A DNA stretch of 64,000 bases. It comes from Salaquimonas pukyongi. GTDB taxonomy: Bacteria; Pseudomonadota; Alphaproteobacteria; Rhizobiales; Rhizobiaceae. The stretch spans positions 1,612,001 to 1,676,000 of the forward strand of contig NZ_CP019044.1 in NCBI RefSeq assembly GCF_001953055.1, written 5' to 3'. The notes below the pieces were generated by a model. That model did not search any database, had not been told where the DNA came from, and worked only from the letters and a program-made list of their open reading frames with translations. Made by a program: the position numbers and the translations under genes. Shown here one piece after another: positions 49,753 through 58,840 of the stretch (the stretch's first letter is position 1; the number at the start of each line of letters is the position of its first letter).

Positions 49753-50808
49753 ATGGATGATGCGGTAAACCAGCTCGACAGCGCAGCGCTTTCCCCCTGG
49801 CTTGAAAGCCATGTCGACGGCTTTCATGACCTGATGGAGATCCGCAAGTTCACGGGCGGTCAATCCAATCCGACCTATCTGATCATCGCCCAGAGCGGCA
49901 AATATGTTCTGAGGGCCAAACCACCCGGAGAACTGTTGAAGTCCGCCCATCAGGTGGATCGCGAATACCGTGTCATGAAGGCGCTGGGTGCAACCGCCGT
50001 GCCCGTGCCGCGCATGTTTGCGCTGAGCAGTGAGGACAGCCCCATCGGGCGGATGTTCTTCGTGATGGAATATCTGGACGGACACATTTTCTGGGACCCG
50101 GCTTTGCCGGAAATCCATGAGTTTCACGGCGAAAAAGCACCGGAGCGGCGGGCACTGATCTACGACCGCATGAATGCGGCCATGGCCAAACTCCATGATG
50201 TGGATGTCGAAGCGGCTGGTCTTGGCGATTTCGGCAAGCCGGGCAACTATTTCGAGCGGCAACTGGCACGATGGACCCAGCAATATGCCGCCAGCGAGGT
50301 CGACCGCAACGAGGAACTTCACCATCTCATCGACTGGCTCGGCGCCAACATGCCCGAGGATGACGGCAGGATATCGCTGGTTCACGGCGATTTCCGCATC
50401 GACAACATGGTCTTCAGCCATGATGCCCATGAAATTCTCGGCATTCTCGACTGGGAACTGTCGACCCTTGGCCACCCCCTGGCCGACCTTGCCTATCAGT
50501 GCATGCAATGGCGCCTGCCCCATCAGGGCGGCTTTCGCGGCCTGGGCGGGCTTGACCGCGCCGCCCTCGGCCTTCCGTCTGAAGAAGACTATGTTGCTGC
50601 CTATTGCCGCCGCCGAAACATCGAAAGACCCGGCAACTGGCCGTTTTACGTCGCCTTCTGCTTTTTCCGCATCGCCGCCATCCTGCAAGGGGTCTACAAG
50701 CGCTCGCTCGACGGCAATGCCTCCAACCCGCAAAAGGCGCGCGAATATGGCAAGGCGGTTCCCGTATTGGGAAAAATGGCCGTGGAGATGATAAACAAGG
50801 GCAGTTAG
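49753..50808 (+). CDS. APH/ACAD10-N-like phosphotransferase
   Basis: A 351-residue kinase-fold protein. The glycine-rich loop KFTGGQSNPTYLI, the Lys of YVLRAKPP, the catalytic loop SLVHGDFRIDNMVF and the metal-binding ILDWELSTLGHPLADLAY are all intact. The family matches the kinase domain of ACAD10/11 and bacterial LvaA, which phosphorylate 4-hydroxyacyl-CoA. An antibiotic-resistance role is unlikely. It fits with the acyl-CoA dehydrogenase at 42513 and the SDRs. Confidence 0.92.
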   Translation: MDDAVNQLDSAALSPWLESHVDGFHDLMEIRKFTGGQSNPTYLIIAQSGKYVLRAKPPGELLKSAHQVDREYRVMKALGATAVPVPRMFALSSEDSPIGRMFFVMEYLDGHIFWDPALPEIHEFHGEKAPERRALIYDRMNAAMAKLHDVDVEAAGLGDFGKPGNYFERQLARWTQQYAASEVDRNEELHHLIDWLGANMPEDDGRISLVHGDFRIDNMVFSHDAHEILGILDWELSTLGHPLADLAYQCMQWRLPHQGGFRGLGGLDRAALGLPSEEDYVAAYCRRRNIERPGNWPFYVAFCFFRIAAILQGVYKRSLDGNASNPQKAREYGKAVPVLGKMAVEMINKGS

Positions 50809-53257: not shown

Positions 53258-54386
53258 TCATACGGTCTCAATATCCCCCCTTGCCCAGCCTTCCTTGGTC
53301 TTGCCCTTGAAATTTTCAAAATCACCTGCCTCGATGGCGCTGCGCATGCCTGCCATCAACAACTGGTAATAGGCAAGATTGTTCCAGGTCAGCAGCATGC
53401 CCCCAGCGCCTCGCCGCATTTGACGAGATGGTGCAGATAGGCGCGCGAATAATCCCGCGCCGCAGGGCAATCGCTTGTCTCATCCAGCGGACGGGGGTCT
53501 TCTGCGTGCCGGGCATTTCTCAGATTGATCTTGCCATGGCGGGTATAGGCAAGACCGTGGCGGCCGGCCCTGGTCGGCATCACGCAGTCGAACATGTCGA
53601 CGCCACGCGCAACGCTTTCAATGAGGTCATCGGGCGTTCCCACCCCCATCAGATAGCGCGGTCTGTCTTCGGGCATTGCCGGACAGGTCGTTTCAAGCAT
53701 GCGCAGCATCACGTCCTGGGGTTCGCCCACAGCCAGCCCGCCAATGGCATACCCCTTTAAATTCATCGCCTTGAGGGCATTTGCCGACTCAACGCGCAAA
53801 GCAGGATCATCGCCCCCTGAACAATACCGAACATCGCCTTGCCGGGCTGCTCACCAAAGGCTGCCGCCGAGCGTTCAGCCCATCTTAGCGAAAGCTCCAT
53901 GGCCCGTTTCATCTCGTCGCGCGAAGCGGGAAGCGCGATGCACTCGTCAAGCTGCATCTGGATATCAGACCCCAGCAACCCCTGAATTTCGATGGAGCGC
54001 TCGGGTGATAGAAAGAACTTCCGCCCGTCAATATGGGAGGTGAAGGTAACGCCGTCCTCCGTCAGCTTTCTGAGCGAAGCAAGCGACATGACCTGAAAGC
54101 CGCCCGAATCGGTCAGGATCGGCCCTTCCCAGCGGGCGAATTCATGCAGGCCGCCAAGCTTTGCCACCCGCTCGGCGCCCGGCCGTAACATCAGGTGATA
54201 GGTATTGCCCAAAATGATGTCGGCACCCAGGTCCCGAACCTGATCCATATACATCGCCTTGACCGTGCCGGCCGTGCCCACAGGCATGAAGGCGGGCGTG
54301 CGCACCGTGCCGCGCGGCATCGATATCTCGCCGCGCCGCGCCGTTTTGTCCGTGGCAATGAGGGTGAAGGTGAATTCGGCAGTCAT
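53258..54386 (-). pseudogene. tgt: Queuine tRNA-ribosyltransferase, broken by two frameshifts
   Basis: Tgt swaps guanine 34 of certain tRNAs for preQ1 or queuine. Three frames together give a full-length enzyme: first frame to GIVQG (Asp of SGGFQVMSL present), second [25 protein letters not shown] to YLHHLVKCGEALG, third MLLTWNNLAYYQLL to the end. The first frameshift is at the C-run 53813-53817 (five G on the coding strand; six restore IVQGGDDP). The second is at 53400-53404 (five G; six restore ALGGMLLTW). Restored length is about 376 residues, normal for the family. The start overlaps the queA stop by ATGA. Confidence 0.93.
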
Positions 54387-55456
54387 GGCGCGCGGTATAA
54401 CAGCGAGGCATCGCCATAGGAATAGAAGCGGTAGCCGTTTGATATTGCATGGGCATAGGCTGCCTGCATCCTCTCAAGCCCGCAGAAAGCAGAAACCAGC
54501 ATCATCAGCGTTGAGCGCGGCAGGTGGAAATTCGTCATCAGCAAATCGGTGAAGCGGAAACGATAGCCCGGCGTGATGAAAATGTCCGTCGCCCCCTCCC
54601 AGCCATGCAGCCTGCCGGCTTCATCTGCAGCGCTTTCAAGCAAACGCAGCGAGGTCGTTCCCACGCTGACGATCCGCCCGCCCGCAGCCTTTACCGCATT
54701 GAGTGCTTCAGCGGTTTTTTCGCAGACATGGCCGCGCTCGAAATGCATCTTGTGGGCTGCAGTATCGTCCGCCTTGACCGGCAGAAACGTGCCTGCCCCC
54801 ACATGCAGGGTGACGAAATGGCGCGCGATGCCTTTTGCGTCGAGCCGCTCGAAGAGTTCAGGCGTGAAATGAAGGCCCGCCGTGGGCGCTGCCACCGCCC
54901 CTTCCTCGCGGGCATAGATGGTCTGGTAGTCTTTCCGGTCGCGGGCATCTTCGGCGCGCTTTAGCGCAATGTAAGGCGGCAGGGGAACATGGCCTGCGCC
55001 ATGCAGTGCCTCATCAAGCGCCGCGCCGGTGAGGTCGAAGGCAAGTTCGACCTCCCCATCAGCGCCCTTTTGCGTAACCGTCGCATCCAGCGCGCCCATC
55101 AGGCAGGCCGTATTGTCGTGACCAAAGCGCACCCGGTCGCCGGGCTTCAGCTTTTTGGCACCGCGCACAAAGGCTTTCCAGCGATTGCCGGACACGCGCA
55201 GGTGCAGCGTCGCACTGATCTGCGCGGTCGCCCCATCTCGGTTGCGAATGCCCTCAAGCTGGGCGGGAATGACCTTGGTATCGTTGAACACCAGCGCGTC
55301 GCCGGGCTCCAGCAGGTCCGGCAGATCGCGGGCGAGATGATCTGAAAGACCTTCTTCAGGGTGCACACGCAGCAGCTTTGCACGATCGCGCGGGCTGACC
55401 GGCCGCAGAGCGATCCGGTCTTCCGGCAGGTCGAAATCGAACAGGTCAACGCGCAT
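54383..55456 (-). CDS. queA: S-adenosylmethionine:tRNA ribosyltransferase-isomerase
   Basis: A 357-residue enzyme that moves the ribosyl part of SAM to preQ1 in tRNA to form epoxyqueuosine. The motifs [56 protein letters not shown] and [17 protein letters not shown] are complete. It is coupled to tgt, as in most bacteria. Intact, in contrast to its partner gene. Confidence 0.97.
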
Positions 55457-57493: not shown

Positions 57494-57628
57494 ATGGTTT
57501 TGCTCATCACCGCCTTTTTCATGATCACCATCCTGTCCATCGCCGCCATCATGCGCCTTGAAAGCGAGAAACAGGCAGGCCGCGAGCGCCGCCTGAAGCG
57601 CCTCGACGACTATCGCTGGGTCGAATAA
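57494..57628 (+). CDS. 44-residue single-helix membrane protein
   Basis: Starts MVLLITAFFMITILSIAAIM at 57494 and has AGGAGA six bases upstream. One membrane helix (residues 2-20) is followed by a highly charged tail (ESEKQAGRERRLKRLDDYRW). It is too short for most gene finders. Function unknown. The strong ribosome site and clean topology support it being real; longer upstream reading is rejected. Confidence 0.65.
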   Translation: MVLLITAFFMITILSIAAIMRLESEKQAGRERRLKRLDDYRWVE

Positions 57629-57775
57629 GCCCGCTTACGGCATGTAGCCCCCATTTGCCGTTTCGGCCTGTTTTTCTACAGGCTTGCCCCACTTTTTCGC
57701 AAGCTTGCGAGTGTCCCTTATTCCCATTGCCCCCTAAATGTGGTTCATCCATCGGGTTTTTGCCGGGAGCCCGAA

Positions 57776-58840
57776 TTGATCTCCAAACTCGCCCACTGGT
57801 TTTACACCTGGAAACATCCGGTCACCACTCCGGCGGTGGAAAATCTTCAGTCCGCCTCCAAACGTGCCGCTGACGCCCTTGGCGGGAGCAAAACCGCCTT
57901 TCCCCACGTGCTTTACCCAACCAGCCGCGACATTCGTGTCAAGCCCCAAGGCACGTTGTCGCCGCTGATCCGCCTGGCAGGGCTTGTTCATGGCCGCCCG
58001 GTACACATTGCCCTCTGGCAGAACCAGGCAACAGGGGTATTGGGACCACTTGCCCGCAGCCGCAAATCAGCCCGCAAACCCCGGGTGCTGAAGGAAAACG
58101 CCATCCTCTTCTGGCAGTCCGGCAACAAGGCGCCAGGCAAGACAACCGGCGAGGCCCATGTACTCAAGATCAGCCTTGCCCACCGTTCCCATGCGCGGGA
58201 AATCCGCATGCTGAAAACCCTGTCCGCATTTAACGGTCTTGTCCCGAAGATCGAGGCCGCAGACCCAAACCTGCGCTGGATTGTGCTGGAGAAGATCGAG
58301 GCAGTACGCGAGCTCAGCGCGCCCGAACAGGCCGAATGCTATGTGGAGCAGATAGCGCCCGGCTATTTCGACTTCTGGGGATGCAGGACCAGGCCCGTCA
58401 GCCGCTATCTTGGCAGCCGCTGTCTTGGCACCATGGCAACGCCCGATGCGCTGGAAGCGGAAGCACGGCGCCTTGGCATCGAGCTGCCCGCGGGCTGGCA
58501 GAACGGATCGATGGACTGGTCGATTACCCATGGCGGCGGCATATGCGAGGAAATCCTGATAAGAACCGACGGGCGGCCCTGTCTTCTTGACTGGGAAAAG
58601 GCAACGCTGGCCCCCATTGGCGAAGACCTGCTGCAGGTCTTCGAGCACTGCCCGCAGATGACCTTGCGATTCTTCGACGGCATTTCAGTAGCCGGGGCAC
58701 TGCCGGCCAAAGCCCAGCTTGCCATCGTTTTGTGCATGCGCAGTCTCGCAAAGCAAAAGCGAGCCAGAATCAATCCGAAAAGCGTTCGCTCCGACCGCAT
58801 CTGCGCAGCCCATCTGGTTGCAGCAGAAAATACCCGCTGA
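57776..58840 (+). CDS. Kinase-fold protein with degenerate catalytic loop
   Basis: A 354-residue protein. A TTG at 57776 with GGGAG six bases upstream is the best start; a GTG at 57740 is an alternative. Residues ~120-200 look like the N-lobe of an APH/choline-kinase fold (AHVLKISLAHRSHAREIRML with a Lys and a helix-C Glu, then IEAADPNLRWIVLEKI hinge). The catalytic loop is ITHGGGICEEILI: the Asp of HGD and the Asn are replaced, but the metal-site CLLDWEKA is intact. No close family is recognisable. Confidence 0.72.
   Translation: MISKLAHWFYTWKHPVTTPAVENLQSASKRAADALGGSKTAFPHVLYPTSRDIRVKPQGTLSPLIRLAGLVHGRPVHIALWQNQATGVLGPLARSRKSARKPRVLKENAILFWQSGNKAPGKTTGEAHVLKISLAHRSHAREIRMLKTLSAFNGLVPKIEAADPNLRWIVLEKIEAVRELSAPEQAECYVEQIAPGYFDFWGCRTRPVSRYLGSRCLGTMATPDALEAEARRLGIELPAGWQNGSMDWSITHGGGICEEILIRTDGRPCLLDWEKATLAPIGEDLLQVFEHCPQMTLRFFDGISVAGALPAKAQLAIVLCMRSLAKQKRARINPKSVRSDRICAAHLVAAENTR

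Follow-up and report, generated by a model that had tools for sequence, protein, structure and literature searches.

Loss of the catalytic aspartate has precedent among kinase-like proteins, in SelO and in the spore-coat kinases, whereas none was found for the HGGGICEE loop described here, and a literature search of titles and the starts of abstracts returned no published description of it. In SelO, as reported in part of one source (PMC3281104), the HRD motif is usually HGV, also QGN or HGS, and the human protein retains Asn339 and Asp348, with Asp338 beside the asparagine; a passage of another source (PMC8097203) has ATP bound flipped and describes the DFG aspartate as the base. The HGGGICEE protein resembles SelO in the replacement of the catalytic aspartate, in the presence of an acidic residue at +6 (D338 in the human protein) and in the retention of the metal aspartate (PMC3281104, in part), and its E258, E259 and D272 lie at places matching Asp338, Asn339 and Asp348 of SelO. 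However, SelO keeps the metal asparagine (Asn339; same part of PMC3281104) where the HGGGICEE protein has E259, and it belongs to a different family, for which the HGGGICEE protein has no Pfam match at E up to 10. Among published systems, SelO offers the closest parallel for the chemistry of a functional site that lacks the catalytic aspartate.

Members of the APH/CAK family (aminoglycoside and choline kinases) are numerous, and passages of PMC2860764 describe their catalytic aspartate as nearly invariant. The same passages cover the bacterial spore kinases (BSK pseudokinases, among them YutH), which likewise have a CAK fold with the catalytic aspartate lost and which, in the spore coat, are thought to be non-enzymatic; these are Gram-positive spore-coat proteins with varied inactivating changes, and a single fixed loop is not described in those passages. 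The HGGGICEE protein keeps H252-G253, D272-W273-E274, P280 and D284 of the APH/CAK family, but has Gly and Glu where the family has the catalytic Asp and the metal Asn. The bacterial Ser/Thr pseudokinases (ActPs2, GLW, DLHK and others), in the part of PMC12599244 that describes them, likewise combine a kinase-like fold with an altered catalytic motif, but are relatives of the Ser/Thr protein kinases, to which the HGGGICEE protein has no Pfam match. Loss of both the aspartate and the asparagine together with one fixed loop amounts to a natural experiment on whether the fold permits a second chemistry or the pocket has turned sensor. As the protein is small, with no obvious membrane segment and with four relatives, the question is directly testable; its wider relevance is restricted by a distribution that, as far as known, covers part of one genus.

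A CAK-fold homologue with a replaced catalytic loop

Within the window (the whole 64,000-nucleotide stretch of DNA that was analysed), the open reading frame given in the initial annotation is present, from a TTG at 57776 to a stop codon ending at 58840 (Table 1). The aligned start in two further sequences (L002 and L003) is likewise TTG, preceded by GGGGAGC. A promoter and terminator scan gave nothing above chance, and the protein has no obvious membrane segment, the highest 19-residue hydropathy mean being 1.68.

Table 1. Coordinates of the gene and of its principal sequence features in the window
Feature	Position	Strand	Remarks
HGGGICEE pseudokinase-like protein gene	57776..58840	+	TTG start, 354 aa; from ORF and sequence; orthologues in four other genomes of the genus
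GGGAG, probable ribosome-binding site	57765..57769	+	6 nt before TTG; read from sequence
K106-E107-N108, probable nucleotide-loop motif K-x-N	58091..58099	+	K106 and N108 invariant in family and five sisters; putative role
V129-L130-K131, probable beta-3 lysine	58160..58168	+	invariant in family
R141-E142-I143-R144-M145-L146, probable helix-C glutamate	58196..58213	+	invariant in family; putative role
THGGGICEE (251-259), replaced catalytic loop	58526..58552	+	invariant in five genomes; aligns with HGD....N of sisters
LLDWEKA (270-276), metal site D272-W273-E274 and family-only K275	58583..58603	+	D272, W273 and E274 common to five sisters
P280-x3-D284, C-lobe structural motif of the fold	58613..58627	+	P280 and D284 common to five sisters

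No family name had been evident at first inspection, but APH/CAK can be named. The Pfam APH profile (PF01636) matched the protein alone over residues 200-291 with E 8.2e-5 and 22.9 bits against a cut-off of 23.2, and reached 24.4 bits, above the cut-off, in the genome search, in which neighbours were included in the frame; at a loose limit of E 10, APH matched four of the five family members. Profile-profile comparison (hhalign) of the family gave a probability of 97.9 against the five canonical sisters described below (E 6.4e-13, 173 columns) and of 94.7 against five ordinary APH proteins (E 5.7e-8), compared with 0.03 for the LysE control, and sequence-profile kinship to the APH/CAK superfamily was found over the C-lobe. 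AlphaFold2 predictions of the full protein with L006, and of the kinase part with L006 and an APH paralogue from the same window, had pLDDT values of 33.7 and 35.9 respectively, and with values under 37 the fold assignment rests on the sequence profiles. At the level of sequence, homology to the CAK (APH/choline-kinase-like) fold is established, and the combination of kinase-like kinship with a lost catalytic motif predicts a CAK-type pseudokinase, in agreement with the initial annotation of a pseudokinase-like protein. That annotation had proposed comparison with the SelO, HipA and APH folds, of which APH is the one supported, by profile, since Pfam reported no SelO, HipA or protein-kinase family at E up to 10, and APH only. 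No relatives of the protein were found in NCBIfam, none of the PADLOC anti-phage defence families matched at E up to 10, and among solved structures the best sequence match (E 0.15) was unrelated, with none found by profile.

The catalytic loop reads THGGGICEE where the sister proteins have HGD....N, confirming the HGGG in place of HGD that had first drawn attention to the gene. G254 lies opposite the aspartate and E259 opposite the asparagine in the alignment with all five canonical sisters, and both replacements, Asp to Gly and Asn to Glu, are present in all five family proteins, as had been proposed; the DWE metal site was also correctly recognised, being invariant in the family and common to the sisters. 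Among the features of active kinases tested in the family, the HxD aspartate and the asparagine at +7 are thus absent and the DxE/D metal site is present. THGGGICEE and LLDWEKA are identical across the five family proteins, in an alignment in which 77 of 299 ungapped columns are invariant and the lowest identity is 37%; THGGGICEE forms the longest stretch without variation in the family, with 15 of 20000 shuffles reaching that length. There are synonymous codon differences within the loop among the family genes, and for the closest family pair dN is 0.19 versus a dS of 1.17. Since the loop has remained fixed despite 37% identity and synonymous changes, it is due neither to chance nor to base-calling error. 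Sequence comparison thus shows that the catalytic Asp and the metal Asn have been lost, that the loop replacing them is strictly conserved and that selection acts upon it.

Residues near the site that are confined to the HGGG family are G254 (D in the sisters), G255 (L/M), I256 (S/A), C257 (P/V/K), E259 (N) and K275 (G/A/R/L/N), while E258 is not unique to the family, Glu being found there in one sister. The fixed changes of charge relative to the sisters are an Asp lost at +2, a Glu at +7 and a Lys after DWE. Common to all ten proteins (family and sisters) are K106, N108, P157, H252, G253, D272, W273, E274, P280 and D284. The N-lobe Lys and Glu that had been described as recognisable hold within the family, where K131 and E142 are invariant, but less surely against the sisters: K131 lies opposite a sister Lys in one alignment and is shifted in another MAFFT run, and as these alignments disagree the N-lobe register is uncertain.

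Canonical relatives and distribution

The nearest relatives found are the K-x-N sisters (L008, L009, L010, L013 and L049, from the same order and class), which likewise have K106, N108, H252 and D272-W273-E274 but differ in having HGD....N in all five and no Lys after DWE. With the family profile, matches at E 0.01 came from 6 of 297 genomes from the order and 5 of 289 from the class (the window's own genome counted in each). A wider profile including canonical relatives had matches at E 1e-5 in 4 of 199 genomes from the taxonomic family and 12 of 249 from the order, counts that include the carriers and the rows from which the model was built. Both Asp and Asn were kept in all 14 canonical relatives read (L008-L014, L049, L050, L055, L056, L057, L059 and L061), a set that leaves aside the relatives L015, L016, L054, L058, L060 and L062. 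Both residues were also kept in all six other proteins of the window's own genome above the APH cut-off, a weaker match below the cut-off (L024) having been set aside. The window itself also encodes, at 49756-50805 on the forward strand, a canonical member of the APH family (E 2.2e-50) that has both HGD....N and DWE.

A tree built from 15 proteins placed the five HGGG rows together on one side of a branch (97/96) and grouped them with the five K-x-N sisters (96/96), apart from the ordinary APHs, a grouping that partly reflects how the sisters were found. Many of the end branches are long, so the exact position of the HGGG family in the tree is unsure. The closest canonical sister, L008 (L064, 5775-9973), adjoins an acyltransferase (Pfam) and two methyltransferase-like genes, with matches below cut-offs. 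These neighbours hint at glycan work for that sister only, and K-x-N phosphotransferases such as L008 may act on surface glycans.

Among 61 genomes covered by a protein search (the window's own and relatives), five contain the HGGGICEE protein, the window's own included, with identities to the window protein of 73% (G005), 57% (G001), 47% (G004) and 40% (G006), all within the same genus; L006, from a MAG labelled Nitratireductor sp. HKST-UBA69, gave the same match as G005, and the two were counted once. A profile search recovered the same five carriers among the seven genomes of the genus, the window's included, with no match in G002 or G003, the latter only 77% complete. The back-translated HGGGICEE occurred in 1 of 398 phylum genomes, the window's own, the four other carriers being outside that sample. 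With its five carriers in one genus, and L006 labelled Nitratireductor sp., an alphaproteobacterium, the protein does not appear to be a spore-coat protein of a spore-forming Gram-positive. On plasmids there were no relatives of the window protein beyond a single weak match in Streptomyces (E 0.2); of two sister proteins used as queries, one had no plasmid match and the other had three weak matches in Leisingera. No relatives were found in viral contigs. The catalytic loop was probably replaced once, in an ancestor of part of one alphaproteobacterial genus. The copy in L003 (from G001) has an in-frame TAA near the gene start, at approximately 1590, with the rest of the frame open, representing either a draft-genome error or a recent loss.

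Possible functions of the altered pocket

The best explanation, held tentatively and with somewhat less than even confidence, is that the protein is a CAK-fold pseudokinase with a selected, replaced loop and a metal-nucleotide in its cleft, the pocket of which probably still catalyses a SelO-like group transfer. Judging from the retained motifs, the metal-nucleotide would be held from the N-lobe by K106/N108, K131 and E142, and D272 and E259 would serve as metal ligands, E259 replacing the Asn. Phosphoryl transfer of the ordinary kind, carried out by the HGD aspartate, would have been lost. The pocket would probably remain catalytic, K275 supplying a new positive charge and either D272 or E258/E259 acting as the base, and would transfer a group much as SelO does. 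The retention of D272, E274, K106 and N108 favours a catalytic pocket, and the persistence of the loop at 37% identity is more than loss of function alone would maintain; a centre both rewired and preserved thus probably points to nucleotide binding and to a function other than ordinary phosphorylation. A site that is still catalytic is preferred, albeit with uncertainty: SelO retains the Asn that this family has replaced, the spore-coat relatives are regarded as non-enzymatic and the N-lobe alignment is unsure, all of which count against it, and pure ligand binding would also fit the conservation of the pocket. More generally, the protein probably has either non-canonical chemistry or the role of a ligand-binding regulator, on the basis of probable metal-nucleotide binding. 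It could potentially represent a new class of active CAK-fold pseudokinase, with a Gly-rich loop, chemistry moved to E258/E259 and K275, and a transfer (e.g. of AMP) new to the APH family, although this bolder proposal is considered unlikely.

A realistic alternative, if a somewhat doubtful one, is that the protein has the CAK fold but no catalytic activity, its loop forming the binding site for a metabolite such as a nucleotide or nucleotide-sugar, and that it serves as a sensor, scaffold or regulator. The replacement of both the catalytic Asp and the metal Asn would suit such a role, as would the lack of a biosynthetic-pathway operon, and the nearest precedent within the fold family is provided by the spore-coat CAK pseudokinases, for which non-enzymatic roles have been proposed. 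However, the nine-residue loop is conserved beyond the needs of a scaffold, and D272 and E274 have been kept.

That the protein is instead an ordinary phosphotransferase, in which E258 or E259 substitutes for the Asp in moving the gamma-phosphate to a small molecule, appears improbable: the metal site and K-x-N motif are retained, and the sister group looks fully canonical, with one member beside acyl-/methyltransferase-like genes, but the Asp is present in 14 of 14 canonical relatives and in the six other APH-type proteins of the same genome, and E258 and E259 sit 4-5 positions further along the loop. It is very improbable that the gene is a decaying kinase with an active site lost by drift, as might be read from the TAA in one of five copies (L003) and the two non-matching genomes of seven, given an invariant loop, a low dN/dS, an uninterrupted frame in the other four genomes that carry the gene and the incompleteness of G003, one of the two non-matching genomes. 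HGGG is the oxyanion-hole motif of hormone-sensitive-lipase-like hydrolases, but beyond those four letters a hydrolase of this type is scarcely credible and was rejected in the main, the GxSxG nucleophile motif being absent from all five proteins, Pfam giving APH only for the window protein, and HGGG aligning with the HGD of the relatives, followed by their DWE and P-x3-D.

Genomic context

In four genomes (G000, G001, G004 and G005) the gene has coaD on its left and LysE-cNMP-gyrA on its right, the LysE and cNMP-binding neighbours being Pfam assignments; the names coaD, gyrA, queA and tgt are given by recognition. The right flank is the same in G006, with other genes on the left. In G002 a single contig carries coaD, LysE and gyrA, separated by other genes and without a copy of the HGGGICEE gene; read by eye, the stretch between coaD and LysE (L041, 9626-11172) contains a LuxR-like regulator and three small ORFs that look secreted. 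In G003, whose coaD contig is short, the corresponding place holds an ORF that by eye resembles a membrane protein, and four genomes of other genera have no copy at the locus. The survey of genomic context suggested in the initial annotation therefore yielded a shared neighbourhood, but neither an operon partner nor a biosynthetic-pathway operon was found in the neighbourhoods of the genus and other-genus genomes, so the context suggests no pathway.

Upstream of the HGGGICEE gene, at 57494-57628 on the forward strand, there is an ORF of 44 aa, hydrophobic then basic, which is possibly a small membrane protein. L030 and L032 have this ORF in the corresponding position (80% over 44 aa) and L031 has part of it (55% over 33 aa); it was not found in L033. 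Elsewhere in the window, at approximately 53260-54390 on the reverse strand, a tgt-like gene lies in three pieces in different frames, with breaks near 53820 and 53402. The gene is a single open frame in four relatives, and the breaks represent either a frameshift or long-read indel errors in the assembly.
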